A stretch of 43,259 bases of DNA from a virus, in IMG/VR virus record IMGVR_UViG_3300022747_000007, positions 1-43,259 of that record. One strand, 5' to 3'. Shown here piece after piece: positions 2,547 through 27,023 of this stretch; the stretch's first letter is position 1; each line of letters begins with the position of its first letter. The notes under the pieces are model-generated. The model had not been told where the DNA came from, did not search any database, and worked only from the letters and a program-made list of their open reading frames with translations. The position numbers and the translations under genes were made by a program.

Positions 2547-5500
2547 TCAGAACGTCCCTTGCTCGCCAGCCTTCTCGCCGGTCTTCTTTTGCTTGCTCTC
2601 TTTTTCGCCAGCCAGCCAGTCCTGGAGCTGGGCCTTGAATGCGGGTGACGACATATACATGTACGACGCACCCAGGCCAGCGCCCACCACTGGACCGCCA
2701 GGCAGGTAGCCAGTGGCGTAGGCCAGGCCAGGCTGAGCAATCAGCTCATAGACGCCACGCACTGCACCGCGCTCAGCTGAGTTGGTCTTCTCGCTGTTGA
2801 GCACGAAGAGCTTGGCGATGCGCTCGATGGCTTGGAAGATGAATGAGCCAGTCGCACCGGCCAAGATGTTGGACAGGTCGCGCTGGTATTTCACACCCAG
2901 GAATGCGTTGTAGAGCGGGTCGGCCAAACCAGTGAAGCCAGCGCGGCTGAATGCCAACGACGCCAGCCACTTGATGGGGAAGCCACCTTCTTTTTTCTCT
3001 TCTTCGTCCCACTTCTCAGGGTTGAGCAAAGCCTCGCGAGCGACCGTCACCAACAGGTGGCCAAGGTACAGGCTGGCCAACGGAGCGATGACTTGTGTGG
3101 CGGCCACTTGAGCTGCGTATGCTTTGCCGCCGCGGTCGTACTCGCGGCCAACCTTTTTGAACGACTTGACTGCGACGTTGCGGAAGAACGCCATTGAGAA
3201 CGACAGCAAGCCGTACACAAGGCGACCAACGCTGGTGTTGGATGCGTAGGGTCGGTCAATGGCTGTCGGGCTTTGGATGGCCTGGTTGACTAGGCGACCC
3301 ACCATGACTGCATAGAGCTTGCCCATTTCAGTCAGGCTGCCGTCGACGTCGATCACCTCGTCGTGACGTGGCACGCGACCGGTGAACTCACGCGACCAAT
3401 TCACAAAGTCCTGGAGCTGAGCGCCACGCAAGCCAGCGTCGATCAGCTCGTCCTTGGCAAAGCCCTTGTCGCGTGCGCTGGCTGTGTCGTCGTCCAACAC
3501 TTGAGCCAGCTCCATCACATAGCTGCCAGCCAGCTGCATGGACGCACGGCGCTGAGCGTTGGTCAAACCAGTCAGGCCGACTCGACGGAAGAAGTTGGCA
3601 GACGCACGGGTCATTGAGGATGACTCAGCGACAGTGCCACCCAAGCGGTTGGCGATCATCTCGTCAGCCAGGTCACCCGACACAATGCCAAGCACACGTG
3701 CCATGGCGCGTCGCTCGCGAACGCTGCCGCTCTTGCCGATTTCTTGGATGGTCAGGGCCAAGCCCTTGAACGCGTCCAGTGGCTTGCCAGTCTGCAAAGC
3801 CACTGTCATGGGTTCAGCCAACGACGTCAGCACCACGCGACCCAGCAAAGCCATTTGGCCAAGCCCGTGCACAAATCCCAAAGTGCGGTTCAGCTCGTTT
3901 GGCAATTGCGAGCGGTCAGTGCCGGTCACTTGGCCAACGATCTTCTGCACCATCTCGCGGTCGTCCTTGCGCACACCGGCCTTCACCATGGTGTCCAACA
4001 AGCGATACAGCTTGGTGTTTGTTTCCTTGCTGTTGCGAGCGTCTTTGCCGAAGCGAGTGTTGTACTCAGACTTGCGCACCGACATTTGCACGTATGACGT
4101 GATGCGCTCGATTGGGTCTTGGATGTAATACTTGGACAGAATCTTGTCCGCTTCTGGTGGCAGCGCACGACCCTTGAGGAATGAACCGGCAGGTGAGTGC
4201 GAGCTGAAATCAGTGGGCGAGCCGTAGCTGATTCGCACCTGGTATTCGGCTGCGGCTTTTGCTGACCACTCATCGCGAACCAAGTCGTAGGCCGCCTCAA
4301 AGACGTCACCGTTCTCGTCCAAGAACTCATTGATTGCTGCCTGTGCTTTGTCAGCCTTGTCTGCTGCGTCTTCCTCGGCAGCATTGGCTTGGTCAAGTGT
4401 ACGCAACAGCTTGGCCAACTCTTTCTTGGCGGTGCGGTATTCACCCAAGCGTGGGTCGCCAACCATCTCAGCTTCTTTGATGCGCTTGTCCAGCGCGTCG
4501 AGTGCGACTGAAATGTCGTCAGCTTCCATCGGGCGCTCGGTGTCGCGCTCAAAGACGATCTTGTAAACCTCAGTGGCGTCCTTCACGAACTCAGCGTCGT
4601 TGGCTGTCACCAGCGGCTCGTCGATCAGGCGTGGCAGGTAGCCCTGGTCCTTGACAAAACCAATGTCCAGGCCAGCGTTGCGGTTGTAGTAGTAGACGTC
4701 GGTCATCAACTCACGCAGCGCTGCGGCCAGTTTGTTCAAGTCGGAACCAGCGGTGGCCGCCGCCTCGTTGCCGGTAGCTGTCAGCATGTCTGTGAGCTTG
4801 GCCAAGTCCTCGTCGCTCAACAGGTCGGCGTTGTGGTTGCCAGAGATGTTGGATAGGCGTGTCAGCAAGCGACGTGTCTCGCGCTCGACTGCCTCGGCAT
4901 ACGTGCCACCAGTGCCAGTCTCTTTGCCAGCGCCAGGGTTGGTTGCCAAACGCTCTGTCACTTGACGAATGGCTTTGGCCGCCGCCAGGTTGCCTTGCTT
5001 TTGGTAGTACGACTCCATGGACAGCAAGACGCCACGGTTTGTCTCAATGGCTGCACGCACGTAGTCGCCCATGCGTTTCATCAAAGGGCGGTCATCGTTG
5101 GGGCGCAGCGCCAGCTTTTCGTGCTCGCGCTGGCGGACGACCCATGCGCGCTTCTCAGCATCCCACATGGCACGGATGCCTGTCGACTGAGCGGACCGTT
5201 GTTGGTCGGCAAAGTAGACACTTGGGTCAGAAAGACGCACGTTGGTTGGCAGCGTGGCAGACAACTCGCCGTCAGGGTTGAGCAACGCCTGCTCGCGCAT
5301 GGCATCAAACAACAAGTCGTAGGCGCGGAAAATGTTGAACCGGTCAGAGTCCTTGGGGAAAGTCTTGGCCAGGCGAATCTCTGCATCGTTGAGGTATGCA
5401 GCGTCACCTTTGCCAATGAACTCGGTTGAGCCACCGGCTGCTTCCACCTTGTGTGCGACGTAGGCTTCAAACGAGCGGGCCAACATCTCTGTTGGTTTGC

Positions 5501-8500
5501 GCCAATAGTTGGGGTCGCTGCCAGTCGTCTTAGCAAACTCACCGGCATTCTTGTAGAACTGGCTGCGGTCGTTGCGACTCTTTGATGCGCCAGCGATGAT
5601 GCGCTCCAGGTCGGCTTTGAGCTTGGTGGTGTCTTGGCCCTTTTGCTCAGCTGCCTCGATCTTTCGCTCCAGGTCCATGATCTTGGCCGACTGCTCAGCC
5701 TGGTCAAAGAACATGGTGTTCATCAACAGGCGGAATGAGTCACGCACGTTCTCTGGCATCTTGTCGCTGAACGACTCGCCGTCACGAACGTAGCCAGACA
5801 GCGTGTCGGTGATACCTTCCAACGACGTCAGCAAATGGTAGTCAAGCGCGTGGCCCCATTCATGGGCAAACGAGTTTGAGCGACCAGGCATTGCGATGGT
5901 CGGAACTTGTGACTTGATGCCTTCGGTATGGCCACCGCCACCAGTGCCCTGTGGAAAGTAAGCGCCCAAGAAGTCGCCCTGGCTGGTCATGGCCAAGCCA
6001 AGTGTGCCGCCCAAGCCAATGGCTGAGGTAGGCAGGTCCAGCACGTGAGTCATCAATTGCAGGCCGCGGTATGCGTCAAGCAACTGGTCGATGGAATCGC
6101 GGACGTTGGCCTTTTCGGACTTCTGCACGAAGGCCAGGCCGTAAGTGTTTTTCAGGCCGTCGGCAAGAATCTTGAACTGACGGGCCGGTGGCAACAACTC
6201 AGCCTCGGCTGGGTCATAGCCTAGCTCGACGAAGGCGTCACGGTAGATGCTTTGGCGGTCGGTGAACGAGACTTTGCGGAATAAGGAGTCCTGGCCAGTG
6301 CCTTTGACGCGTTGGCTTTTTGCGGGGCCATCGTCTTGGCTGCCGCGTTGACGGCTCGGCGTGCTTGCGCCTTGGTCATTCCCGTCAGGTCCACCGGCTC
6401 GCTCATTTACATCACCGGATTCGGTTTGATCGGAGCTTCCTTGGCCTGCTTCGTCCGACGTGCGTCCCCGATCTGCGGTGTCGAGAAGTGGGCTTGTTGA
6501 GCTGCGACCTCCAAGCGTTTGCCCGACGCGACGAACGAAGGGAGCGACCGCTGGTGGCCGACTTGCGTGAACGCCTTGCTCAGCGCTGCCATCGCTTGAG
6601 GGCTGGCTGGTCGCTTCGGCGTCGAAGAGGGTTCCATTGTCGGGTTTTCGATTTCGTTCATTGCGTTGCTCCACGGCTGAGCGGGTTAGCTCTTGGGGTG
6701 AGGGTGGCGAGCCTCCCAGCAAGTCCTCGGTGTCTTGGCGCTTGGCGAAGTCAACGTAGGCTTTGAGCACGTCGTTGATCGCGTCACGGCCAACGGCACG
6801 GGACAGGTCTTCATTGTAGAAGGCGCGTACAAATTCATCAACGATGGGGTTGCGCTCGCTCACCATGTCGTTTTGAGCAAGCCATTCCTGCACGCGGGAC
6901 TTGTTTTGGCGCAGCTGGTCGACGGTGCGAGCCGCCGTCACCAGCTCTTGTGTCACGTCATAGCCGGATGGGATGACGCCTTCGCGTGCCATACGACGCA
7001 TTTGCAGCCAGGCTGGGGCGCTGTCAAACAAGGCGTTGCCGATTGACTTGATGTTGTCGTCGGTGCTGTCGATGAGCTTGGCCAGCAACTCACGGTCGTC
7101 GTATGCGGCTGCCAACAAGGCGCGACGGATGCGCGTCACGCCATCTGGCGAAACATTGCCGTAGTCGTCCAGCATGCCATTGCGCTGAGCCTGGGGTAGC
7201 TGACCAATGAATGCGCGAACGAAATCACGGTTGGCTGCCGACGTAATGTCGCCACCGGTCCACACGTCGACCACGCTGTCCTTGAGCGCAGACACGTCGA
7301 TCTTGGCGCGCTCCACTGGCGTGAGGTCCATGGTGGCTGACTGATTTGATTCTTGAACGAAAGCCACGCGCTCTTGAGGCGTCATGGGTGTGACGCGCTC
7401 ACGCACCAACACCGGCTCGTTGATGCCGGTGGTGTCGTAGCCAAGGCTCTTGAGGTAGTCGCGGTACGCCTGAGCACGCTCAGGAAACATGGCGAAGGCG
7501 CGACGGATGGACTGCACGCGGCCATTGCCAGACTCAACAATCATGTCGGGGCCAATGATCGGAGCGCCACGGTCGGCTTCTGCTGACTGGCCAAGACGTT
7601 GTGGGTCGAGCTGGCTGGCGATGTTGTTGATCTGCTCGTCGCTGGCTGCACGTGAACGGTCACGTGGCTGCAAGTCACCGCTGGCAGGCTTCAACTCGCT
7701 GGCGTCAATGATGCGCATGCGGGTTTCAACCTGGCGACCAGTGACGGTCGACACGCGGTGGGTGTCGCCACCGCTTGGCGCAGGGGCCGCCTGGGGTGCG
7801 CTTGGCTCGGTCGAGCTAGAGGCGGGGGCGGGCTGTTCTTTGGGCTTGAAATTGGAACGAACCAGCTCGTCGGCTTGCTCGGTGGTCAAAGGCTGAGCGC
7901 CAACGCCTTGCGGGTTGAACTGGTTGGCCAACGCATAGCCCTTCTGATTGAGCTTGCCTTCGCCGTCCAACATGCCGTTGGCAGTCAGCAACTCTTTGAC
8001 GTCGCCGTCCTTCAAGTTGCCGTTCATGGCGTCGGTCATGCCCATGTAGATGGCCACGGACGATGGCAGCTTTGTGCTTTCAGCCACCGGCTCTGGTAGT
8101 TGTGTCGATTCAGCTGGCGCTTGAGCGACAGGAGGCTCAGGGTTTTGCACGTTCTGAGTCGGCTGAGTCTTGGGAATGAGGTCATCAAACGACACTGGAG
8201 CTGCTTGCAGCTGAGCGCGGTCAGGGCTGAGTGAGTCGACGGCAGCCTTGCGGGTTGCGTCTTGATTGAGCGCAACTTGCTCAATGTCGGCCTGAATTGC
8301 ACGTGCCAGCGCTGAGCCTGGTGCAACGACCGGCTCCACTTTGGACTGGTAGAACTCTTTGGCCAGGTCAATACTCTTTGCGCCACCAGCCATACCGCCT
8401 GAAATCAACAGGGTTTGCATGAACTGCTTGCGGAATGCGTCGGCCACGCTCATCTCTTCATTGCTGAGTCCGGCCTGCATTTCGGCCTTGTTCTGGCCGA

Positions 8501-9497
8501 CAGCTGTGATGGTTTCGGTGGCTTGCTCAGAAGCCAGCGAGCCAGCCTTTTGCGTCAGCTCAGTCAGGCGTGCGCCCTTGGCAGCACGTGCTGGGGCTGA
8601 GAATGCTTTGAGGAAAAGCGCATTGCTGACGGCTTCGGGAATTGCCTCCCAAGCGCCGTACTTGACGGCTGCTGAGTCAAAGTCTTTAAGGGCTTTGCTC
8701 CACTCTTGTTCGGTCAGCTCGCTGCCGTAGAGCTTTTTGGCCTGAGTGTTCAGGTTGTCGCGCACGCGGCCAAGAAATTCGTCTTTGCTGGCGCGGTAGC
8801 TCACCGTGCCGGATGCGGCCATACCAGCGCCAACGCCCACAGCTGGGTTGGCTGTCGCGGTTGTTGCCGCCGCCCCAGCGATGGCTGAGGTAACCATGGT
8901 GGTCAGGCTGTAACCCAACGACTCACCGAATCCAGTCAGCCCTTCGTAGTTGGGGTCGACCTTTTTCTTCGGAGCTGACGTCGCCGTGATGGCGCGGTCC
9001 AGCATGCCGTCGTCAGTTGCACCCATATTGCCGCCACGTATGGCGCGCAAGGCGGTGTTGGCAGCCGCAGCTGGTACGCGTGGCAGGTCGTTGGCCACCA
9101 CAGCGGCAGCTTCTGGCACGGCCTGAGTCAGTGGTCGACCTTCGGGGTTGAACATTGGGCGATTGCCGCCAGCGTCGCGATACACCTGGTCAACGGATGA
9201 GCCACGCTCGGCAGCGATACGACGTGCGGCCAGCTCGTTGGCTGAGCGAGCACGGTTGCCACCAAGTCCCAAGAACTCGGCAGCGCGCTCAACGAGCGTA
9301 GGCTCGTATGGGCGCATCTCAGGTCCATTGAGAACAGTACCAGTAGCCGCCCCGCCAACTGGTCCCGATTCTTCCGCAGCCGCAGGAGTGGCCGACGCGG
9401 TGGCCTGGGGCGGAGCTGCTGGAATTAGGTCGTCAAAACTGACTCCGGCAGGGGCTTGCTTCTGTTTTGGAATCAGGTCGTCAAAATTGACTGTCAT
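2547..9497 (-). CDS. giant polyvalent ejection protein (ddrB-ParB, LPD1 zincin-like, LPD38)
   Basis: 2316 residues, the largest gene, at the place where T7-like phages carry the gp16 internal virion protein. The motif FDDLIP occurs three times near the N terminus (residues 5-10, 20-25 and about 433-438). A ddrB-type ParB domain spans about 585-927 (SGNGRVQSIRRAF is its GNGR motif). A low-complexity linker follows, then an LPD1-type domain at about 1070-1400 with a metallopeptidase-like HEWGH at 1212-1216. The rest is long and helical, and an LPD38-like end (about 2085-2260, GRLVYGLLSFSMAFFRNV) contains hydrophobic helices. Such fusions are the 'polyvalent proteins' of phages and conjugative elements, thought to enter the host with the DNA and act early. 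The virion role is inferred from position. Confidence 0.85.
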   Translation of the reverse strand: MTVNFDDLIPKQKQAPAGVSFDDLIPAAPPQATASATPAAAEESGPVGGAATGTVLNGPEMRPYEPTLVERAAEFLGLGGNRARSANELAARRIAAERGSSVDQVYRDAGGNRPMFNPEGRPLTQAVPEAAAVVANDLPRVPAAAANTALRAIRGGNMGATDDGMLDRAITATSAPKKKVDPNYEGLTGFGESLGYSLTTMVTSAIAGAAATTATANPAVGVGAGMAASGTVSYRASKDEFLGRVRDNLNTQAKKLYGSELTEQEWSKALKDFDSAAVKYGAWEAIPEAVSNALFLKAFSAPARAAKGARLTELTQKAGSLASEQATETITAVGQNKAEMQAGLSNEEMSVADAFRKQFMQTLLISGGMAGGAKSIDLAKEFYQSKVEPVVAPGSALARAIQADIEQVALNQDATRKAAVDSLSPDRAQLQAAPVSFDDLIPKTQPTQNVQNPEPPVAQAPAESTQLPEPVAESTKLPSSVAIYMGMTDAMNGNLKDGDVKELLTANGMLDGEGKLNQKGYALANQFNPQGVGAQPLTTEQADELVRSNFKPKEQPAPASSSTEPSAPQAAPAPSGGDTHRVSTVTGRQVETRMRIIDASELKPASGDLQPRDRSRAASDEQINNIASQLDPQRLGQSAEADRGAPIIGPDMIVESGNGRVQSIRRAFAMFPERAQAYRDYLKSLGYDTTGINEPVLVRERVTPMTPQERVAFVQESNQSATMDLTPVERAKIDVSALKDSVVDVWTGGDITSAANRDFVRAFIGQLPQAQRNGMLDDYGNVSPDGVTRIRRALLAAAYDDRELLAKLIDSTDDNIKSIGNALFDSAPAWLQMRRMAREGVIPSGYDVTQELVTAARTVDQLRQNKSRVQEWLAQNDMVSERNPIVDEFVRAFYNEDLSRAVGRDAINDVLKAYVDFAKRQDTEDLLGGSPPSPQELTRSAVEQRNERNRKPDNGTLFDAEATSQPSSDGSAEQGVHASRPPAVAPFVRRVGQTLGGRSSTSPLLDTADRGRTSDEAGQGSSDQTESGDVNERAGGPDGNDQGASTPSRQRGSQDDGPAKSQRVKGTGQDSLFRKVSFTDRQSIYRDAFVELGYDPAEAELLPPARQFKILADGLKNTYGLAFVQKSEKANVRDSIDQLLDAYRGLQLMTHVLDLPTSAIGLGGTLGLAMTSQGDFLGAYFPQGTGGGGHTEGIKSQVPTIAMPGRSNSFAHEWGHALDYHLLTSLEGITDTLSGYVRDGESFSDKMPENVRDSFRLLMNTMFFDQAEQSAKIMDLERKIEAAEQKGQDTTKLKADLERIIAGASKSRNDRSQFYKNAGEFAKTTGSDPNYWRKPTEMLARSFEAYVAHKVEAAGGSTEFIGKGDAAYLNDAEIRLAKTFPKDSDRFNIFRAYDLLFDAMREQALLNPDGELSATLPTNVRLSDPSVYFADQQRSAQSTGIRAMWDAEKRAWVVRQREHEKLALRPNDDRPLMKRMGDYVRAAIETNRGVLLSMESYYQKQGNLAAAKAIRQVTERLATNPGAGKETGTGGTYAEAVERETRRLLTRLSNISGNHNADLLSDEDLAKLTDMLTATGNEAAATAGSDLNKLAAALRELMTDVYYYNRNAGLDIGFVKDQGYLPRLIDEPLVTANDAEFVKDATEVYKIVFERDTERPMEADDISVALDALDKRIKEAEMVGDPRLGEYRTAKKELAKLLRTLDQANAAEEDAADKADKAQAAINEFLDENGDVFEAAYDLVRDEWSAKAAAEYQVRISYGSPTDFSSHSPAGSFLKGRALPPEADKILSKYYIQDPIERITSYVQMSVRKSEYNTRFGKDARNSKETNTKLYRLLDTMVKAGVRKDDREMVQKIVGQVTGTDRSQLPNELNRTLGFVHGLGQMALLGRVVLTSLAEPMTVALQTGKPLDAFKGLALTIQEIGKSGSVRERRAMARVLGIVSGDLADEMIANRLGGTVAESSSMTRASANFFRRVGLTGLTNAQRRASMQLAGSYVMELAQVLDDDTASARDKGFAKDELIDAGLRGAQLQDFVNWSREFTGRVPRHDEVIDVDGSLTEMGKLYAVMVGRLVNQAIQSPTAIDRPYASNTSVGRLVYGLLSFSMAFFRNVAVKSFKKVGREYDRGGKAYAAQVAATQVIAPLASLYLGHLLVTVAREALLNPEKWDEEEKKEGGFPIKWLASLAFSRAGFTGLADPLYNAFLGVKYQRDLSNILAGATGSFIFQAIERIAKLFVLNSEKTNSAERGAVRGVYELIAQPGLAYATGYLPGGPVVGAGLGASYMYMSSPAFKAQLQDWLAGEKESKQKKTGEKAGEQGTF

Positions 9498-11583: not shown

Positions 11584-12315
11584 TTACGCGACGATCTTGC
11601 CCGAGCCAGTCGAGCCTGTGTCATACAGGTTCACGCCTGAGCCAGATGACGAGCCAGAGTTGACTGCCGCTTTGGGTGTGGTGGATAAGTTGGTGGCCAA
11701 GTTGGCGATCAAGTCACCAAGACTGGCGTATGTTGGGTTGGTTCCAAGCTGTGTTGCGGCAGCGTTGGCCTTCGCCGTCACCAAGCCTGGGTCAGCCAGT
11801 TGAGAGTTGCTTTCAAGCAGAGAAGCGCGCTGACCTTCGACCGATGCGCGCGCGTCTTGAATCATCTTGTTGGCTGTGTCAGCGATGCTGACCTTGCCGG
11901 TGTCGTATTGGCGTTGCAGCTCTGCCAGCATGTCACCACGCAGCGATGAGTTAAGGTTGCCACTGCGAGCCAGGTTGGCGATCAAGTCGCGCTGCTGGTT
12001 CTGGTACTGGCGGTCCAGCTCTGGCATGGCGTAGTTGGTGTAATCCTGGCCACGCTTGTTGTAGAAGTCGTCGTTGAACTGGCTAAAGATGCTGGAAATG
12101 CTGCCAGCGCCTTCTGTGATTGCAGTTTGACGACGAGCCTCAGCTTCGCGTGCTGCTTGAGCGGCCTTTTCGGCCTCCGCGATGCGTGCATTCTCGGCCT
12201 CTTGCTGAATGCGAGCTTGCTCTGCTGCTTGGCTTGCTGCTTGATCGCGAGCCTTTTTTGCTGAGTCGTATTGCGAATACGCTGCGACGGTAATTGCTGC
12301 TGCTACTACTGACAT
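11584..12315 (-). CDS. internal virion protein, gp14-like
   Basis: 243 residues. It has a hydrophobic N-terminal stretch (VVAAAITVAAY), then a very regular Ala/Glu/Gln-rich coiled coil (about residues 18-65), a central ARSGNLNSS-type segment common in phage ejection proteins, and a Ser/Gly-rich tail. The pattern resembles T7 gp14-like proteins that form the first pore in the outer membrane. Its start follows the stop of the cupin-SET gene directly (TAAATG), and its ribosome binding site CAGGAG lies inside that gene, so the two are translationally linked. Confidence 0.65.
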   Translation of the reverse strand: MSVVAAAITVAAYSQYDSAKKARDQAASQAAEQARIQQEAENARIAEAEKAAQAAREAEARRQTAITEGAGSISSIFSQFNDDFYNKRGQDYTNYAMPELDRQYQNQQRDLIANLARSGNLNSSLRGDMLAELQRQYDTGKVSIADTANKMIQDARASVEGQRASLLESNSQLADPGLVTAKANAAATQLGTNPTYASLGDLIANLATNLSTTPKAAVNSGSSSGSGVNLYDTGSTGSGKIVA

Positions 12316-13191
12316 TTATTTCTCCTGTCCAATTTGCAAAGTTAGTGAAAGCGCTTGGCGGTAGTCGATGGTGATTTCCTCACCGTCCTGTCCGCCTCGG
12401 CATCCTGTGATGTGTTTTGTTGCGACGAGATATGCGTCGTCACCAACTCGCACCAGCTTTGCATTGGGTGATGCTGAGTGATTTGTGTATCGTCCTGCGA
12501 TGGTTTGCTTGCCGTAAATGCGCGCTGGCGCAATGGCTTCGCCTGGCTCAATGCCAGCCGTGGCAAACAAGCCTTGTCCTTCGATGCGTGATGTGGCAAC
12601 CTTAATCTTGTAGCCACCGCCTGGTAGTTCTGCAACGTCATCGCTCACCATGAGTGAGCCGTCAGTGACGCCAACTTCTTGGAGCACCTTGCGGTAGTCC
12701 GACTGGTCGACTTCGTTCATGAGTAAGGCGACTTTGCCGTCCAAGTGCTGGCCAAAGTATTGGCTCTTGGTGATGAACGTGTCTTCCAGTTTGGTGACGT
12801 CTTGCTCGTTTGTCGCGTAGACGTTGAGCCAAACCATGTCTTCATGGATGTAACCGATCTTGCGTCCTGGCTTGCCGACAAACAGAGCTGGTGCGACAAC
12901 TTCGCTTGTACTGCCGTCGTCGTTGAGCATGGTGACGCGGCCCTTGAGCATGATGTTGGTGTGCTCAAAGTTTTGATGGTGGCCAACGGCCAACGTGCCA
13001 GCTGGAATCATCAACTCGCGGATATAGACGCCAGGTCCATAGCGGTGGATGACAGAGCATTCAACTTGCTGCTCGCTGAGCATGAATTGCTCAATGCGCT
13101 CTACGTCGCGACCAAACTCTTGGGCGAGCTGGAGCAACGACGCTTCGCCGCTGGGCGTAGTGAGTGCGTTGGTTGGGGTCAGCTCGGCCAT
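12316..13191 (-). CDS. cupin-SET domain protein (putative protein-lysine methyltransferase)
   Basis: 291 residues from ATG 13191. An N-terminal helical part precedes a cupin-like barrel (about 55-125) with the metal-site-like string GHHQNFEHTNIMLKG. The C-terminal third carries the SET hallmarks in order: GQGLFA (205-210, cofactor-binding GxG), NHSASPN (237-243, the N-H-S-x-x-P-N box) and GEEITIDY (270-277, catalytic-Tyr box). The usual Cys in NHSC is Ala, and there is no post-SET Cys cluster. SET proteins methylate lysine in proteins; the target here is unknown. It sits between the nozzle and ejection genes, so the substrate could be a virion protein. The promoter at 13252-13280 would start transcripts downstream of the frame's alternative GTG (13248), which supports ATG 13191. 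Confidence 0.75.
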   Translation of the reverse strand: MAELTPTNALTTPSGEASLLQLAQEFGRDVERIEQFMLSEQQVECSVIHRYGPGVYIRELMIPAGTLAVGHHQNFEHTNIMLKGRVTMLNDDGSTSEVVAPALFVGKPGRKIGYIHEDMVWLNVYATNEQDVTKLEDTFITKSQYFGQHLDGKVALLMNEVDQSDYRKVLQEVGVTDGSLMVSDDVAELPGGGYKIKVATSRIEGQGLFATAGIEPGEAIAPARIYGKQTIAGRYTNHSASPNAKLVRVGDDAYLVATKHITGCRGGQDGEEITIDYRQALSLTLQIGQEK

Positions 13192-13251
13192 GTGTCTTGA
13201 CGTGTTGAGTCGCGTCCTGGCGAGAGACACAGGTATCGCCTGCTGCACTGA

Positions 13252-13280
13252 ATTGTATGAAATTTGTCGGCCTTGGCCAA
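13252..13280 (-). promoter_or_regulatory. sigma70-like promoter for the cupin-SET and ejection genes
   Basis: On the minus strand, TTGGCC (13280-13275), 17 nt and TACAAT (13257-13252) form a promoter-like pair in an AT-rich gap of otherwise GC-rich late genes. The -10 box is part of the 8-mer CATACAAT, also found at two other leftward promoters. Confidence 0.5.
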
Positions 13281-13283
13281 CAA

Positions 13284-15365
13284 TTAACCAGCTTCGCCGT
13301 CCCGTGGTGGGTCGTAGTGGACCAACAACGAGCCAATCTTGGCGTAGCCATCGTTCAAGCTGGTCAGCCGGAATGCGATGTGGGTGCTATACGCCTGGAA
13401 TGCCACGTTGCCGACGCCAAAGGTGTTTTCAGCAATCCGCGCAATTTCTTGTCGCAATGACGTGTCAGTGGGGTCGGTGGCAATCTCCACCTTCCACTCG
13501 CCCTCGCAAGCCATGTCGATGCCCTGAAACATTTTCAAGGTAGCTGGCTTGCCAGCGCTGACGTAGGGAATGAATGCCTCGACCTCGGTGTCGTCGTAGG
13601 TCCGGCCATTCTCACCGCCAAGCAAATACAGGTTGTTGTCTGCGCCTCGGCAGTACAACTTGCGACCAATGATGGCCCAATCCGTCACGGCAAACCCTGG
13701 GTCGTACAAAGACCAGGCCGATACGTGCGACGCTGGGAAATACGAGAAGACATAGACCTTGCTGCCCATGGCCAACAGGTATCGGCCATCGCGTGGTTCT
13801 AGCACAGCACGGCTTTCACGAGCTGTCAGGCGGTCGGCATTGACGTCGGCCAGGACCATGGGGTCAATTGGGTTGCCAATGTCCGTGGCAAAGGCTGCGT
13901 TTGACGCGTCGCGGGCACGGATGGAACGAATGCCTGACTCAGACAGGTAGAACACGTCGCTGTCACCAATCTCCTGCACAGAGCGTGGGGCAATCGCACC
14001 GGTGTTGTTCAAAACCTGGAGTTGCTGGTTGCCGGACGCGGTGACGTCCACAAACCAGATTTGCACGGTTCGCTCAGAGAAGAAGGCTAAGTTGCTTTGG
14101 TAGTTGGCAATCGACGTCAGGCGCTCAGAGCCTTCGGCGTTGGTCGACAGGTTGATGAAGCCAGCGCCCTTGACGGACTCATTCGACTCAAGTGGAGCCT
14201 CAATGCCAGAGAAGTGCACCAAGCTGCCGGACGTCGTGTAAACCTTACTCTTTGCAGGCTTGCCGTACTCGCCAGGCAGGTAGGTTTCAGAGCCAGCTGG
14301 GCTTGTCGTCAGGTTTGCGCCGTTGGCCAGGGCCACGGACGCCACGTTGGTTGTGACGTTGCCAGTCTTGGTGATGGTCAGCGTCTTGCCGTTGTTGGCC
14401 GTGCCAGCCAATTGAATGATGACGTTGACCTTGTTGCCAACAGCCATAGCGCGATAGTCAGGGCTGCTTGAGTAATCGTTGATAGCGGCAGCGATGGCCG
14501 CCGCTGTGGTGGCGTTGTCGCCCGTATGGTCGATTTGAGCGCCAATGATCTTGATGCCATCCACAACCAGGTTGGTGATGGCGTTATCCACACCGCTCGC
14601 AAAGTTACTCACAGAGCCGATGGTGAAGCTGCCGGTCACGTTGGCCACCAGAGCCAGCCCGTTGAACTTTGTGCCAGGCGTGACTGCTGTGATCGTCACG
14701 ACAGCGCCCACGGCCACCGCGGTGAAGTCGGGGTTGCCGACAAACGAGTTGATGGCTGCCGCGATGCGAGCTGCCGTTGATGTGTTGCTGCCGTCGTGCT
14801 GCACGGCTTGAGTCATGATGGCGTATGTGCCAGCACGAATGCTGGTCATGCGGTCGCCAGTTGAGTTGATACCGCCAGTCACGGTGAAGCTGGCCGTCGC
14901 ACTTGTGCCGCCAGCCGTACCGCCTGTAATCGTAAACGACGCACGCGCGCGCGCCTCAACAAACTCTGTGTGGCGCGTGCCGTTGTAGAAGTGGTAGATC
15001 GCGCCGTCGTCGAATTGAGCAATCACGTATGGCAAACCAGAGAATGCGCTGACGTGAAGAACCTTGGCCAGCGCTGCGCCTGTTGGCGACACCAGCTGCT
15101 GGTAAATCAGGTTGGATGGCGCGCCGGACGGGATGGTGACTGACGCCACCGAGCCAAAGGTGTAGAGCGTTCCGCCCACCGCAGCCAGGCCAAACGTATT
15201 TGCAGGGAATGCAGCCTGGTTGACAAAGGCCAGTCGCTTCTCGATTTCTCCGCCGCGATTGATGTGGCCATTGACCAGGTTCAAAAGCGAACCAGGGACC
15301 GACAACACCGGCATGCGCCGTGTGTCCATCCCTGAGCGAAAGTCCTCGATTTGAAAGTACGGCAT
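13284..15365 (-). CDS. tail nozzle-like structural protein (tail tubular protein B position)
   Basis: 693 residues. The N terminus (FQIEDFRSGMDTRR, then NGHINRGGEIEKR) is a recognisable start of podovirus proteins placed after the head-tail adaptor. The middle (about 130-370) is Gly/Thr/Ala-rich with repeated Ig-like or beta-type segments: SFTITGGTAGG and SFTVTGGINST, and two copies of an AAIAAAIN-type unit. The C terminus is beta-rich with YLLAMGSKVYVFSY-type blades. Length and gene order fit the gp12-like nozzle or stabilisation protein. Its start lies 3 nt after the adaptor stop. The internal repeats suggest an inserted surface-exposed domain. Confidence 0.7.
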   Translation of the reverse strand: MPYFQIEDFRSGMDTRRMPVLSVPGSLLNLVNGHINRGGEIEKRLAFVNQAAFPANTFGLAAVGGTLYTFGSVASVTIPSGAPSNLIYQQLVSPTGAALAKVLHVSAFSGLPYVIAQFDDGAIYHFYNGTRHTEFVEARARASFTITGGTAGGTSATASFTVTGGINSTGDRMTSIRAGTYAIMTQAVQHDGSNTSTAARIAAAINSFVGNPDFTAVAVGAVVTITAVTPGTKFNGLALVANVTGSFTIGSVSNFASGVDNAITNLVVDGIKIIGAQIDHTGDNATTAAAIAAAINDYSSSPDYRAMAVGNKVNVIIQLAGTANNGKTLTITKTGNVTTNVASVALANGANLTTSPAGSETYLPGEYGKPAKSKVYTTSGSLVHFSGIEAPLESNESVKGAGFINLSTNAEGSERLTSIANYQSNLAFFSERTVQIWFVDVTASGNQQLQVLNNTGAIAPRSVQEIGDSDVFYLSESGIRSIRARDASNAAFATDIGNPIDPMVLADVNADRLTARESRAVLEPRDGRYLLAMGSKVYVFSYFPASHVSAWSLYDPGFAVTDWAIIGRKLYCRGADNNLYLLGGENGRTYDDTEVEAFIPYVSAGKPATLKMFQGIDMACEGEWKVEIATDPTDTSLRQEIARIAENTFGVGNVAFQAYSTHIAFRLTSLNDGYAKIGSLLVHYDPPRDGEAG

Positions 15366-15368
15366 GGC

Positions 15369-16079
15369 TTATGGCTGTGGCTGAACTGCAATGATCTTTG
15401 GGCCTTGAGGCATGAGTCCTTGAGGCTCGCCGGAAAGGGTGAACACGTCGTTCTTGGACGTGCGGCCCTTGAGGGTTAGCAGGTGCTTTTCAGCCAGCTT
15501 CAACTTGATGCCAGCGTCAGCGCCTTTCTCACGGGCTAGGATTTCTGCTGCGGTGAACAACACCAGCAAGGTGTCATCCAGGTCAGCGCGGTCGGACTCA
15601 GCCACCAGGGGTCGCAACTTGCGAATGCCCCAAATGCGCAACACGATGTTGGGCGGGCTGGTTGTGCCGTTTGAGCTGGGGATGGGCCACAGCTCGATTT
15701 GATCGTTCTCGTACTCTTGCCAGCGCTGGGTCGGGATGGCGCGAATGTCGCGGTCCGAGTCGTACTGGTCGTACTGAGGTTGGCCAATGCCGTAGTCGAC
15801 GGGAACCCAACGGTTGCCGTACTTGAATTCGATTTTCTCGATGCGCTCCAACGTCAAGTCGTTGGGCAAGTCGTAGTAGCGTTGGCCAGCGTTGAGCACA
15901 ATGTCGCGGTGCACGCGCAAGAATTTCCAATCGTGGTCTTCCCACAGTCGGCGCTGCTGGCGCTGCAACGCTTTGACGAGGACGTCGCGCATGGCGACGC
16001 CCAAACTGGCCTGCAACGAATGCCCAGCTTCTGCTCGCACGTCGTCGATCAATTCACCCAGGGTTACGTTGCGGGCCAT
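15369..16079 (-). CDS. head-tail adaptor protein (gp6/gp11-like)
   Basis: 236 residues. The helical N terminus (TLGELIDDVRAEAG) and the segment RRLWEDHDWKFLRVHRD followed by YYDLPNDL are the typical pattern of podovirus adaptor proteins that bind under the portal. A helical C-terminal hairpin with EILAREKGADAGIKLKLAEKHL supports this. It is placed after the capsid gene and before the nozzle, with AAGGAG before its ATG. Confidence 0.75.
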   Translation of the reverse strand: MARNVTLGELIDDVRAEAGHSLQASLGVAMRDVLVKALQRQQRRLWEDHDWKFLRVHRDIVLNAGQRYYDLPNDLTLERIEKIEFKYGNRWVPVDYGIGQPQYDQYDSDRDIRAIPTQRWQEYENDQIELWPIPSSNGTTSPPNIVLRIWGIRKLRPLVAESDRADLDDTLLVLFTAAEILAREKGADAGIKLKLAEKHLLTLKGRTSKNDVFTLSGEPQGLMPQGPKIIAVQPQP

Positions 16080-23348: not shown

Positions 23349-24164
23349 TTATGCTGTAAACGTGCCGGACGATGTGAATGTGTGGATGGTGTAACCACCA
23401 GAGCTAGTTACCGTTCCACCTGTACCGCGTTGGCTTCCTGCGTAACGAATGATTACGATGCCAGAGCCGCCAGAGCCAGCGCTTCCGTCACCACCTCCGC
23501 CGCCACCTCCTGTGTTTGCAGTACCGTTTCCACCGGCTGTTCTTGCTCCACCAAATCCACCGCCGCCTGCGCCGCCGGACGAGGCGACGCCACTGTTGTT
23601 GTTTGTAGCGCCTCCACCGCCTCCGGCTCTTGTTGTTGATGTTCCATTGATTGATGAACTAACGCCAATGCCACCACCACCACCGCTTACTCCGCTAGTC
23701 GAGCTACCAATACCACCAGCGCCTCCACCTCCACCACCGGATGTGAATGCGGATACACCATCAGCTCCAACGCCACCAGCAAATCCTTGGCCAGCAAAAC
23801 CAATACCAGCGGCACCAGCCGCGTTTGCTACATACTGAGTTCCAGCACCGCTACCGCCAGAATTTGCGGTTCGAGAATTCGATATAAGCCCGCCGCCGCC
23901 GCCAGCAGAAACGATTGACCCAAACGATGACGAATTCCCTGTATATCCAGCAGCTCCGCCTGCGCCAACATTGGCTAAATACGACTTACCTGAAACCAGC
24001 GTTAGGCTTTGTTCAGCTAGGTGTCCACCTCCGCTGTTTTCACCAGATACGGAGCACCGATAACCACCAGCACCACCTCCGCCATAAGTTCCTCCACCTC
24101 CACCAGCAATGACGAGATATTCAACGTCGTATGTAGAGCGTGCTAATTCGCGTGCTTTGCTCAT
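23349..24164 (-). CDS. glycine-rich fibre-tip protein (paralogue of the fibre C terminus)
   Basis: 271 residues, about one third glycine. After a short leader it starts VEYLVIAGGGG and ends with GIVIIRYAGSQRGTGGTVT, then YTIHTFTSSGTFTA. The same start and end frame the C-terminal domain (about 669-949) of the upstream tail fibre, so the gene is a shortened duplicate of that domain. Both genes even share the layout GCATAAGGA across the stop and the next ribosome binding site. Gly-rich domains of this kind form polyglycine-type receptor-binding tips. Probable role: alternative or additional adhesin tip. Confidence 0.75.
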   Translation of the reverse strand: MSKARELARSTYDVEYLVIAGGGGGTYGGGGAGGYRCSVSGENSGGGHLAEQSLTLVSGKSYLANVGAGGAAGYTGNSSSFGSIVSAGGGGGLISNSRTANSGGSGAGTQYVANAAGAAGIGFAGQGFAGGVGADGVSAFTSGGGGGGAGGIGSSTSGVSGGGGGIGVSSSINGTSTTRAGGGGGATNNNSGVASSGGAGGGGFGGARTAGGNGTANTGGGGGGGDGSAGSGGSGIVIIRYAGSQRGTGGTVTSSGGYTIHTFTSSGTFTA

Positions 24165-24173
24165 GTCTGTTCC

Positions 24174-27023
24174 TTATGCCGTGAATGTTCCTGAGCTGGT
24201 GAAGGTGTGGATGGTGTAGCCACCAGCGGATGTCACTGTGCCGCCTGTGCCTCGTTGAGCGCCAGCGTAGCGAATGATGACAATGCCTGACCCTCCAGCA
24301 CCGCTGGATGAGTCCTTTCCGCAACCTCCTCCACTACCAGTGTTTGCAGTTCCAGCACCGCCACCAGCAGAGCCACCACCGCCCGATCCCGCAGTTCCGT
24401 CAGCTAGAGGAGTTTGTCGAGCAGGAGCGCCACCACCAGCTCTTGTTACGGCTGTGCCAGTGATATTTGAAGAAGCGCCAGCACCGCCACTAGCCAAAGA
24501 AGATGAGGATGTAGCATTTCCACCAGCAGAGCCAGCACCACCACCACCACCGCCAGAGTTGTTTCCTGATTGATCCCATGCGTTTCCGCCAGCATAACCC
24601 TGACCAGCAGTGCCAGCGCCTCCAGCAACTGATGTTCCGCCAGTATTTCCATCTCCAGTAGAACCTCCGCCGCTTCCTCCGCTTAAACCAACAGACCCAC
24701 CAACAAATCCACCCGTTCCACCAGCTCCACCACCGTTTGACGAGATGTTTAGACCAGAACCAGCTAATCCATAAATTTGAGAGCTATTGCCACTTGATCC
24801 ATAAACTCCACTGGATGTTGTTGCAGCTCCTCCAGCTCCGACCGTAATTGAATAAGTGCTTCCTGCAATAACAGAAACAGATGATTCAGCTGCCGCACCA
24901 CCACCAGATGCTTGTCCAGATACATTGGATCGGTATCCACCAGCACCACCACCGCCGTAACGATAGCCTCCAGCTCCACCGCCGCCGATCACAAGATATT
25001 CAATCGCGTATGGCACACCTTGAGAAAACTTGACCCATGTAGATGACGATGTGTCATACCACTCTGGCTGACCTGTCGTGCTGTTCATCCTGAACATGCC
25101 AGATTGAGGCGTTGCTGGTCGCTGCGCGGTCGTGCCAACGGGCATCGTCGCCGCACCAGTCGCTGAATCCTTGCCAACAAAACGACCATCAGCATCAGTC
25201 TTGTTGTAGTGGTCTGCCAGCGCAAAAGTGCCGTAGGCCACGATGTTCAATTCATCTCCAGCAGCAGCTGCTGATGTGAGCACAATCGAAGTGCCAGAGT
25301 TTGCGGTGTAGTCATTTTTATCGAGGAAAACACCGTTCAAAAACACATCAACATAGCCAGCGTCATAGGCCAGCGTGAATCCGTTGCTGTCAGCGCCAGT
25401 GAATGTGGTCTGTGCAGCCGTGGCGATGTAGCGATAGCGTCGAGAAGTGCCGTTCACCGAAGAACCAGCAGCGGTCCAACCAGACGAGCCATACACCTGC
25501 ATGGCGTTGGTCGTCGTGTTGAAGTACAGAGCACCAATCAGCAACGCGTTGCCGTCGTTGTCGAGTGTGGGGGCGCTGGCCTTTGGACCCAGGTAGCGGT
25601 CGTCAAACGAGTCATACGACGCAGCAGCAGCGGCAGCCGAAGCAGCAGCGCTGGTGGCCGAGGTGGACGCGTTTGTTGCTTGTGTCGTGGCCGTGGTGGC
25701 CGAAGTCGACGCAGAAGAGGCCGAGCTGGCAGCAGCAGTGGCTGACGTCGCAGCCGAGGTGGCCGAGGACGCAGCATTCGTTGCCGAAGTGTTGGCCGAC
25801 GTCGCGGAGGCAGAAGCATTGGATGCTTGCTGCGTGGCAGTCGTGGCAGCGTTCGTCGCTGTCGTGGCCGAGTTGGTGGCAGAAGTTGCCGAAGATGAAG
25901 CCGATGTGGACGAAGAGCCAGCGCTGGTTGCCGAAGCAGCAGCGTTGTTGGCAGCCGTCGTCGCGTCGCTGGCCTTTTGTGTAGCAGTGGTTGCGGACGT
26001 TGCAGCAGATGTAGCCGAAGTCGCAGCGCTGGTGGCAGAGGTCGCAGCCTCAGATGCCTTTGTCGTTGCTGTCGTCGCTTGCGTAGTAGCAGTCGATGCC
26101 GACGCAGCAGCGTTGGTTGCCGATGTGGCAGCAGCTGTTTGCGATGTGCTGGCAGCGCTGGCGCTTGAAGCGGCAGCAGTGGCCGAACCAGCAGCAGCTG
26201 TCTGTGAAGTCGATGCAGCTGACTGTGATGCGGCAGCAGCAGTGGCACTCGATGCAGCAGCCGTTTGCGAGGCCGCAGCAGCAGTCTGAGATGCAGCCGC
26301 AGCGTTCTTGCTTGTCAGCGCAGCAGCTGCATAGCCTTGAGCGTCAGCAGCGCTGGTCGTCGCTAAGTCAGCAGCCAGCTGAGCCTCAACACCAGTACCA
26401 CGCACCATGATGTTCTTGCGGCCAGCGACAGAAGGCGCGGGTGGGGCAGTCACAAAGGTCAGCGTTGTGCCGACGATGGTGAAGTCCTGCGTTGGAATCT
26501 GAGCAACACCAGCAACAAAAACAGTCGCAGCGTTTGAGCCTGCGTAGTTGTACGACAGTGTGAAAGCAGTTTGCGATGCGTTGCCAGAGAACGTGTCGAC
26601 AGCTTGTCCACCACCTTGCAAAGCACCGTTTGCAATCAGCAGCCAGTAGCCAGCAGAGTTGTCGGTAGCAAACGACGCAGTGGACGTATTGGCAACCAGG
26701 CACAAATACGTTGCGTCGTTGTAGTTCACCAGGTCGCCAACAGCGTAGGCCGTCGATGCAGCCCAATTGCCACGCGGGTTGTACTCGCCCTGGGAGATGA
26801 TGGCCAGCGTTGCAGCAGACAACGATTCTGGTGTCACCAGTTGATTGACTAGCTTGCCGTCGTCGCGCTGCAACAGCGCCAGGTTGGTGAGAGTTTCATC
26901 AAGCGTCAGCTCGACAGCGTTCAACTCAGCATCAAGATTGGTAGCAGGCAGCGGCTTTGTAGGGTTCACTGTCTGGTAGTCAGTGAAGTTATACAGCCGC
27001 GTGTATTGGGTTGGTTGAGACAT
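24174..27023 (-). CDS. tail fibre protein with Ala/Ser/Thr stalk and Gly-rich tip
   Basis: 949 residues. The N terminus (about 1-140) is the virion-attachment part (TRLYNFTDYQTVNPTKPLPA). Residues about 232-468 are an almost pure Ala/Ser/Thr repeat (SAATSATSAATSATTATQ style) expected to form a long trimeric stalk. Residues about 478-660 are beta-rich, with a GALYFNTTTNAMQVYGSSGW motif common in fibres. Residues 669-949 are a glycine-rich tip closely related to the next gene. The stalk codes from repetitive GC-rich DNA, so copy number could change by slippage. It is transcribed from the promoter at 27051-27080. Confidence 0.88.
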   Translation of the reverse strand: MSQPTQYTRLYNFTDYQTVNPTKPLPATNLDAELNAVELTLDETLTNLALLQRDDGKLVNQLVTPESLSAATLAIISQGEYNPRGNWAASTAYAVGDLVNYNDATYLCLVANTSTASFATDNSAGYWLLIANGALQGGGQAVDTFSGNASQTAFTLSYNYAGSNAATVFVAGVAQIPTQDFTIVGTTLTFVTAPPAPSVAGRKNIMVRGTGVEAQLAADLATTSAADAQGYAAAALTSKNAAAASQTAAAASQTAAASSATAAAASQSAASTSQTAAAGSATAAASSASAASTSQTAAATSATNAAASASTATTQATTATTKASEAATSATSAATSATSAATSATTATQKASDATTAANNAAASATSAGSSSTSASSSATSATNSATTATNAATTATQQASNASASATSANTSATNAASSATSAATSATAAASSASSASTSATTATTQATNASTSATSAAASAAAAAASYDSFDDRYLGPKASAPTLDNDGNALLIGALYFNTTTNAMQVYGSSGWTAAGSSVNGTSRRYRYIATAAQTTFTGADSNGFTLAYDAGYVDVFLNGVFLDKNDYTANSGTSIVLTSAAAAGDELNIVAYGTFALADHYNKTDADGRFVGKDSATGAATMPVGTTAQRPATPQSGMFRMNSTTGQPEWYDTSSSTWVKFSQGVPYAIEYLVIGGGGAGGYRYGGGGAGGYRSNVSGQASGGGAAAESSVSVIAGSTYSITVGAGGAATTSSGVYGSSGNSSQIYGLAGSGLNISSNGGGAGGTGGFVGGSVGLSGGSGGGSTGDGNTGGTSVAGGAGTAGQGYAGGNAWDQSGNNSGGGGGGAGSAGGNATSSSSLASGGAGASSNITGTAVTRAGGGAPARQTPLADGTAGSGGGGSAGGGAGTANTGSGGGCGKDSSSGAGGSGIVIIRYAGAQRGTGGTVTSAGGYTIHTFTSSGTFTA

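Follow-up and report, generated by a model that had tools for sequence, protein, structure and literature searches.

A SET domain without its SET-I insert, fused to a cupin in the tail and ejection gene block of podoviruses, is probably an active methyltransferase

Between the nozzle gene and the DNA ejection genes of a podovirus we find a gene for a protein that joins a cupin barrel, a helical linker and a minimal SET domain, and this protein is probably an active methyltransferase. The 43,259 bases under study (the window) form one virus record of IMG/VR, and their genes for a terminase, an integrase and a major head protein make a temperate podovirus the probable source. SET methyltransferases are a known kind of enzyme, whereas the SET-I-less form tied to a cupin of the podovirus virion module is new. 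The comparisons given below lead us to infer that the enzyme is active and targets lysine, and likewise its association with the particle, its timing and its substrate.

An earlier note, made from the letters alone, had placed the gene at 12316-13191, and these limits hold, the strand being minus. The open reading frame begins with an ATG at 13191 and closes with a TAA ending at 12316 (Table 1). Upstream of this ATG the frame is open to a GTG at 13248; we prefer the ATG because zth2-2, the closest relative in GenBank, has its start at about this position. The TAAATG link to the following gene is as described, its ATG abutting the TAA of the cupin-SET gene with a gap of 0, and 92 bases separate the fusion gene from the 693-aa gene that precedes it. 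The claim that the gene has its own promoter is not upheld, as a search gave two overlapping hits in 2.7 kb versus 1.0 ± 0.9 in shuffled sequences and thus did not rise above chance.

Table 1. Features of the cupin-SET gene and its neighbours in the window
Feature	Position	Strand	Basis
Cupin-SET gene, 291 aa	12316..13191	-	Pfam SET, PHROG matches
Cupin (RmlC-like) barrel, about residues 40-128	12808..13074	-	AlphaFold2, solved cupins, PHROG 12032 and 24280
Helical linker, about residues 155-194	12610..12729	-	Shared by SET-bearing members in each of the three lineages
Minimal SET domain, about residues 195-285	12337..12609	-	Pfam, AlphaFold2, MLL1 SET-SAH 7u5v
GxG motif GQGLFA (SAM site), residues 205-210	12562..12579	-	Conservation in 133 distinct modules
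NHSxxPN motif NHSASPN (SAM site), residues 237-243	12463..12483	-	Conservation in 133 distinct modules
GEEITIDY motif, residues 270-277, with catalytic-type tyrosine Y277	12361..12384	-	Conservation in distinct modules
Upstream gene, P22 gp10-type nozzle, 693 aa (P0004)	13284..15365	-	Upstream-gene profile from relatives
Downstream gene, gp7-type DNA ejection protein, 243 aa (P0002)	11584..12315	-	Relatives' phrog_598 matches
Promoter-like site TTGGCC-17-TACAAT	13252..13280	-	9/12 match, not above chance

The fusion of the two domains is supported by the Pfam match to SET, PHROG matches to the cupin, the AlphaFold2 model and matches to solved structures, and the motifs GQGLFA, NHSASPN and GEEITIDY follow each other in the order originally noted. 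The Pfam SET match has an E value of 9.6e-6 (26.4 bits versus a cut-off of 22.4), and four of six fusion records lie above this cut-off in a six-frame search. Folded from an alignment of 48 rows, 46 of them with SET (alignment A2), the cupin-SET protein gives a mean pLDDT of 92 and a pTM of 0.88, with block pLDDT values of 94-98 across residues 191-280. Residues 189-278 of this model overlay the SET domain of MLL1 with bound S-adenosylhomocysteine (7u5v) with a Z of 10.8 and an rmsd of 1.7 Å over 78 aligned residues at 32% identity, and the best structure matches on the SET side are true SET methyltransferases. Structure prediction, which had been proposed as a check, therefore returns a SET fold, and the objection that the fold might be missing falls away. 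The Foldseek list consists mostly of cupins, with SETD8 at rank 49 among the 50 matches listed, and the absence of a family from this list proves nothing. A profile built from 12 linker-plus-SET modules finds MLL1 in the PDB with an E value of 2.8e-9.

Conservation was assessed over 133 distinct linker-plus-SET modules, which remained from 197 fusion ORFs after copies had been removed and one masked ORF left out. Both glycines of the GxG motif are kept (G205 in 132/133, G207 in 133/133), as are N237 (133/133), H238 (132/133), N243 (131/133) and E272 (133/133); Y277 is present in all 132 rows that reach this site, the sequence of L106 ending before it. The exceptions are a Q for H238 in L116, a K for G205 in L203 and a Ser for N243 in two rows. 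The set carries a pattern bias, as E..T.DY was used in several scans, GR[YF].NHS in one and an NHS peptide as one of six patterns elsewhere. A bias-free set comprises loci found with patterns missing the key residues and GenBank relatives found by tblastn; among its representatives the two glycines, N, H and Y are kept in 20/20 rows, and N243 also in 19/20. One further fusion with intact motifs (L337) was found by profile alone among 398 genomes of one bacterial family. All three motifs are kept in far relatives, which answers the question of conservation in homologues in favour of the earlier reading. The dN/dS ratios over 35 pairs sharing no sequence are 0.120 for SET, 0.087 for the linker and 0.082 for the cupin, and a decaying enzyme would not be expected to show such ratios together with such conservation. 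Therefore, in view of purifying selection and the retained SAM and catalytic residues, it is reasonable to propose an active methyltransferase, and we hold its catalytic competence to be very likely.

In one stretch the domain differs from its cellular counterparts. From the second glycine of GxG (G207) to N237 there are exactly 30 residues in 133/133 modules, versus 56 in the cellular SET protein of L121, and in the PDB profile search the corresponding blocks are 7 positions apart in the phage family versus about 42 residues in MLL1. We take the occupant of this gap in other SET domains to be the insert called SET-I. It is usual in the SET class and helps to form the substrate groove, one wall of which it builds. 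The insert is missing from all 133 modules, every one of which is short here, and the phage protein is therefore filed as a variant of the SET methyltransferase class. Post-SET zinc cysteines, found in only part of the class, are absent from the window protein, in which a helix without cysteines follows Y277. Proteins of the PH1 and L119 types also have the linker alongside their SET domain; the linker has a helix at residues 160-173 in the AlphaFold2 model and conserved positions at D165 (130 of the 133 distinct modules), Y/F166 (133), G174 (121) and P190 (128). These conserved helices probably take the place of SET-I. A CxGG insert precedes GEE; its place is filled in 115/133 modules, with the Cys itself in 103, and it is absent from 18 modules, those of the PH1 and L119 types.

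The amino-terminal part has barrel strands at residues 46-125 of the model, aligns with solved cupins at a Z of about 9.8-9.9 over residues 42-128 and is matched by PHROG 12032 and 24280 in a PHROG profile search; model and structure matches agree on the RmlC-like barrel of the cupin superfamily. A Pfam search of the protein gave no match in this part. Catalytic cupins carry a metal-binding His/Glu motif. Among 25 aligned cupins no invariant HxH motif is present, and the five His-rich columns that remain (15 to 22 of 25) may have a structural role. PHROGs and GenBank give relatives of the cupin the names 'short tail fiber' or 'tail fiber adhesin'; for a similar cupin protein of a Ralstonia phage, one paper states that no validation was done.

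Homologues of the neighbouring genes support the place of the gene between nozzle and ejection genes. Because an iterated search from the nozzle and gp7-type proteins of the window gave only 6 and 7 relatives, neighbours were chosen by position, a procedure that also brings in some wrong genes, to judge by the mixed list of PHROG matches. The profile of the relatives' upstream genes finds solved chains of the gp10 nozzle (8.7e-24) and a chain named 'needle head' (2.6e-44). The window's own upstream protein fits this profile with a left-one-out E of 4.4e-25, under strong composition bias, and on its own matches no PHROG or Pfam family. In the set of 38 upstream proteins, phrog_578 'head closure Hc3' is matched by 18, and some others are wrong picks. 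On the downstream side, 20 proteins of a chosen sample of 33 match phrog_598 'DNA ejection' and 5 match phrog_21132 'DNA ejection'; P22 gp7 itself matches phrog_598 at 2e-95. The window's downstream protein fits the respective profile with a left-one-out E of 6.9e-22, also under strong composition bias, and alone has no clear PHROG or Pfam family match. This gene had been called gp14-like; by family it is P22 gp7-like instead. For 118/131 distinct fusion ORFs there is a downstream ORF longer than about 130 aa, and 114 of the 116 listed downstream offsets lie within 24 bases of the cupin-SET stop. The nozzle and cupin genes of annotated relatives are often separated by one or two small genes, and the cupin-only form occupies the same place in the gene order as the fusion. 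This place is not absolute, however, since Alteromonas phage H4/4 carries its cupin gene ahead of the head-tail adaptor gene.

As candidate substrates the neighbours offer no distinctive lysine: considering columns more than 60% filled, lysine exceeds 45% in no column of the nozzle set (38 rows) or the gp7-type set (33 rows), and the idea of a conserved lysine as a substrate mark in either protein was dropped. The gp7-type proteins are lysine-poor next to a SET gene (mean 2.3% in 105 proteins, of which 15 have at most two lysines), and also without a SET partner (2.9%, 12 proteins). Their N-terminus is nearly always MS, with the consensus MSGVATAIV (alignment A6).

Some further genes deserve mention. 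At the end of the window's ejection block (2550-9497, minus strand) lies the gene for a 2316-aa polyvalent protein with ddrB-ParB (1.5e-33) and LPD1 (3.5e-11) matches, and directly upstream of the nozzle gene (15372-16079, minus strand) one for an SU10-type adaptor (Pfam 2.4e-13). Two adjacent genes at 23352-24164 and 24177-27023 (minus strand) match parts of PHROG 2295, and the latter also matches tail-fibre families. In two relatives (L026:14620-16458, L025:14953-16788) the third gene after cupin-SET is annotated 'putative TerL', a name that is probably wrong in L026 because another gene there is already named terminase large subunit.

The gene order is 10-26-14-7 in P22 and 12-13-14 in T7, so that the cupin(-SET) gene corresponds in position to genes 26 and 14 of P22 and to gene 13 of T7. 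P22 gp14 (DUF2824) and T7 gp13 share with it the location between tail or needle genes and the first ejection gene, yet they are not homologous to the cupin: profile scores are near zero, and phrog_651 and phrog_308 (P22 gp14 and T7 gp13) each match 0/12 cupin-bearing records, window included, the P22 and T7 records matching their own profiles. A relationship to the tail needle gp26 was likewise rejected on profile comparisons. The needle profile phrog_1219 has no match in the window genome and gives weak pieces (E 0.002 and 0.008) in MW202744, in a search that also matches 6/14 control genomes; moreover, phage VvAW1 has a separate tail-collar gene besides the cupin, which counts against a needle identity. 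T7 gp13 (L123:7308-7724, relatives L297-L325) is annotated 'probable scaffold protein'. Folded from 17 rows, it yields a GNAT fold at a pLDDT of 93.5 (4u5y, Z 12.1, rmsd 2.5, 127 aligned), and a PDB profile search with its family gave no match. On the strength of this model T7 gp13 is possibly an unrecognised acetyltransferase in the T7 ejection block. It is important to note that this is a parallel to the SET gene and not homology, and that it is silent on activity. There is no neat GNAT-for-cupin swap either, since Sphaerotilus phage vB_SnaP-R1 has the cupin in this place and a GNAT gene elsewhere.

The fusion is not peculiar to this one phage; it belongs to a large family, with members on 509 IMG/VR stretches in one scan. 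PHROG 34170, of function unknown, already clusters the cupin-SET family (E 1.2e-78). By tblastn 55 GenBank phage records have the cupin; in 8 of them the match extends across at least 80% of the protein, at 30-55% identity, and from our reading of the records these 8 represent five different phages. The cupin-SET gene of MW202557 (L028:4356-5240) has been left unannotated. The fetched loci hold 197 ORFs with both domains, 17 cupin-only entries (two of them pieces of the frame-broken contig L147) and 2 SET-only ORFs, counts that are not frequencies, since loci overlap between scans and the fusion was usually the query. The two SET-only ORFs among 199 SET-profile ORFs are a cellular SET protein with post-SET cysteines (L121) and the frame-broken L147; apart from the latter, these 199 include no stand-alone SET of the cupin-SET family. 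A scan with the SET module only also gave fusions (best 80 of 416 matches), and in a module-only tblastn every one of the 8 records below E 1e-11 was a fusion, the remaining 19 having E values of 2 or more. At E 0.1 Pfam SET matches 6/6 fusion records and 0/6 cupin-only records. The SET module is thus an optional add-on to the cupin protein.

A cupin tree built from 72 representatives, 59 of them fusions and 13 cupin-only, requires three changes of the SET label versus 12.2 in shuffles, and strongly supported branches force three changes, although the alignment offers few columns and the bootstrap had not converged. PH1 is firmly joined to cupin-only proteins of the BA3 type, and L119 is placed, with weaker support, beside the cupin-only proteins of SnaP-R1, H4/4 and Amaethon. 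From this tree, the linker-plus-SET cassette appears to have been gained or lost three times. In the bacterial family of L119, 11/398 genomes match, at 14 places, of which 3 are fusions; 10 of the other 11 were re-examined and are cupin-only, and L334, with one TGA in frame, was left out. A cupin-type stretch with one TGA in frame lies at G268:C1:1997642-1998091. In one Paraburkholderia MAG two distinct fusion genes lie 83 kb from each other, and a cupin-only gene is present as well (G002:C12:277357-278187, C12:360471-361262, C15:310505-310897), perhaps in several prophages. Among plasmids, 8/72,556 records match, with the cupin part only.

Proteins of the same architecture and length occur in Rhodoferax phage P26218 (gp30), zth2-2, Pseudoalteromonas phage PH1 and the Manatee Spring podoviruses. 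The annotations consulted do not describe them as methyltransferases, save for one GenBank relative that its annotators named 'pbcV-1 histone H3-lys 27 methyltransferase structure'. The cupin-only 'short tail fiber' proteins (PHROG 12032 and 24280; VvAW1, BA3 and Vibrio phages) have a homologous cupin in the same gene order and end after it, whereas the fusion adds linker and SET. With the SET domain of MLL1/KMT2A the phage domain shares the fold and the GxG, NHSxxPN and EExTxDY motifs; it differs in the shortened distance between motif blocks and in having a cupin as partner. Chlorella virus PBCV-1 has another small viral SET, vSET (1n3j, 3kma; Z 9.6, rmsd 1.9, 79 aligned, profile E 4.6e-6), with a chain of 119 residues, whereas the phage SET is fused to a cupin. 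We take vSET to be a stand-alone protein from a virus of algae. As other phage proteins have SET-like BFVD models, e.g. A0A6J5PTS6 (263 aa, 'SET domain containing protein'), phage SET domains are not confined to the cupin-SET family. No paper on a cupin-SET phage protein was among those listed by a literature search whose coverage excluded most subscription journals and bioRxiv preprints not in PMC. In two phage structure papers 'SET domain' denotes immunoglobulin I-set or C2-set domains, and the word methyltransferase is absent from the P26218 genome paper.

What might such an enzyme do in a podovirus? Our preferred but tentative proposal is a SAM-dependent lysine methyltransferase that is held by its cupin on the tail/ejection assembly and methylates a protein of the assembling particle in the producing cell. 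The enzyme would be made late, when the nozzle and ejection proteins are also produced and SAM is available in the cytoplasm, with the linker helices standing in for the missing groove wall. Its target would most likely be an ejection, tail or head protein of the particle, and methylation would tune assembly or later release. SAM is present inside cells, and because it is intracellular a tail-bound enzyme could act only in the producing cell or in the one entered next. We favour action during assembly because of the late production with tail and ejection proteins and the fixed cupin fusion, and the GNAT fold of T7 gp13 in the matching place offers a parallel for an enzyme-like fold there. Several observations speak against the proposal in its simple form: neither the nozzle nor the gp7-type proteins have a conserved lysine column, and the latter are poor in lysine; the usual substrate groove is incomplete without SET-I; the SET module is absent from many related phages; and H4/4 has its cupin gene elsewhere. 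Because lysine evidence is lacking in the neighbours, we keep two further readings open, in which the target is a host protein.

According to the first, which we consider unlikely though the strongest competitor, the protein would be packaged, ejected together with the gp7-type proteins and would methylate a host protein early, e.g. one of defence or transcription. The gene lies in the ejection block, and further down that block the same phage encodes its polyvalent protein, a class that is ejected with the DNA; the absence of a conserved lysine from the neighbours also fits. However, cupin-only forms fill the same place without an enzyme, so that the base role is not that of an effector. Less likely again, the SET domain may act on a host protein in the late phase, with the cupin alone serving as a virion or assembly component. 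The evidence from fold and catalytic residues applies equally here, and the late gene block and the optional nature of the SET module agree with this view, whereas the fusion in cis to a cupin, seen in 197/199 SET-profile ORFs, suggests that location matters.

There is also a small chance, slightly below that of a late host modifier, that the SET domain is a non-catalytic binding or adhesive module, perhaps at a SAM-free tail tip. The SET domain shares its beta-clip fold with structural proteins. The missing SET-I and the tail-fibre names of the cupin relatives would fit such a role, but the SAM and catalytic residues are kept, beyond the fold alone, and we saw no experiment behind those names. 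Finally, it is improbable that the enzyme modifies its own cupin or linker and so switches its assembly state: K111 is kept in 47/48 and K142 in 45/48 rows of alignment A2, but the PH1- and L119-type fusions, like 12/15 cupin-only forms, have Arg at the K111 column with a Lys just before it, so that no single lysine marks the SET-bearing form, and L119 and PH1 also lack K142.

Returning to modification during assembly, a broader and unlikely generalization would be that podoviruses control their ejection machinery by protein modification. The gene place before the ejection genes would then be a site for modifying folds, the GNAT of T7 gp13 and the cupin-tethered minimal SET, which would act on ejection or tail proteins in assembly, the SET domain being an unusually short form that works with linker helices in place of the SET-I wall. 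Phage-made methyl-lysine tied to the tail/ejection block would, for its part, represent a new layer of control in assembly or early infection. Members of the family are common in IMG/VR and occur in the cultured phages PH1 and P26218, and the missing SET-I makes the phage enzyme a natural test of the minimal needs of a SET methyltransferase.
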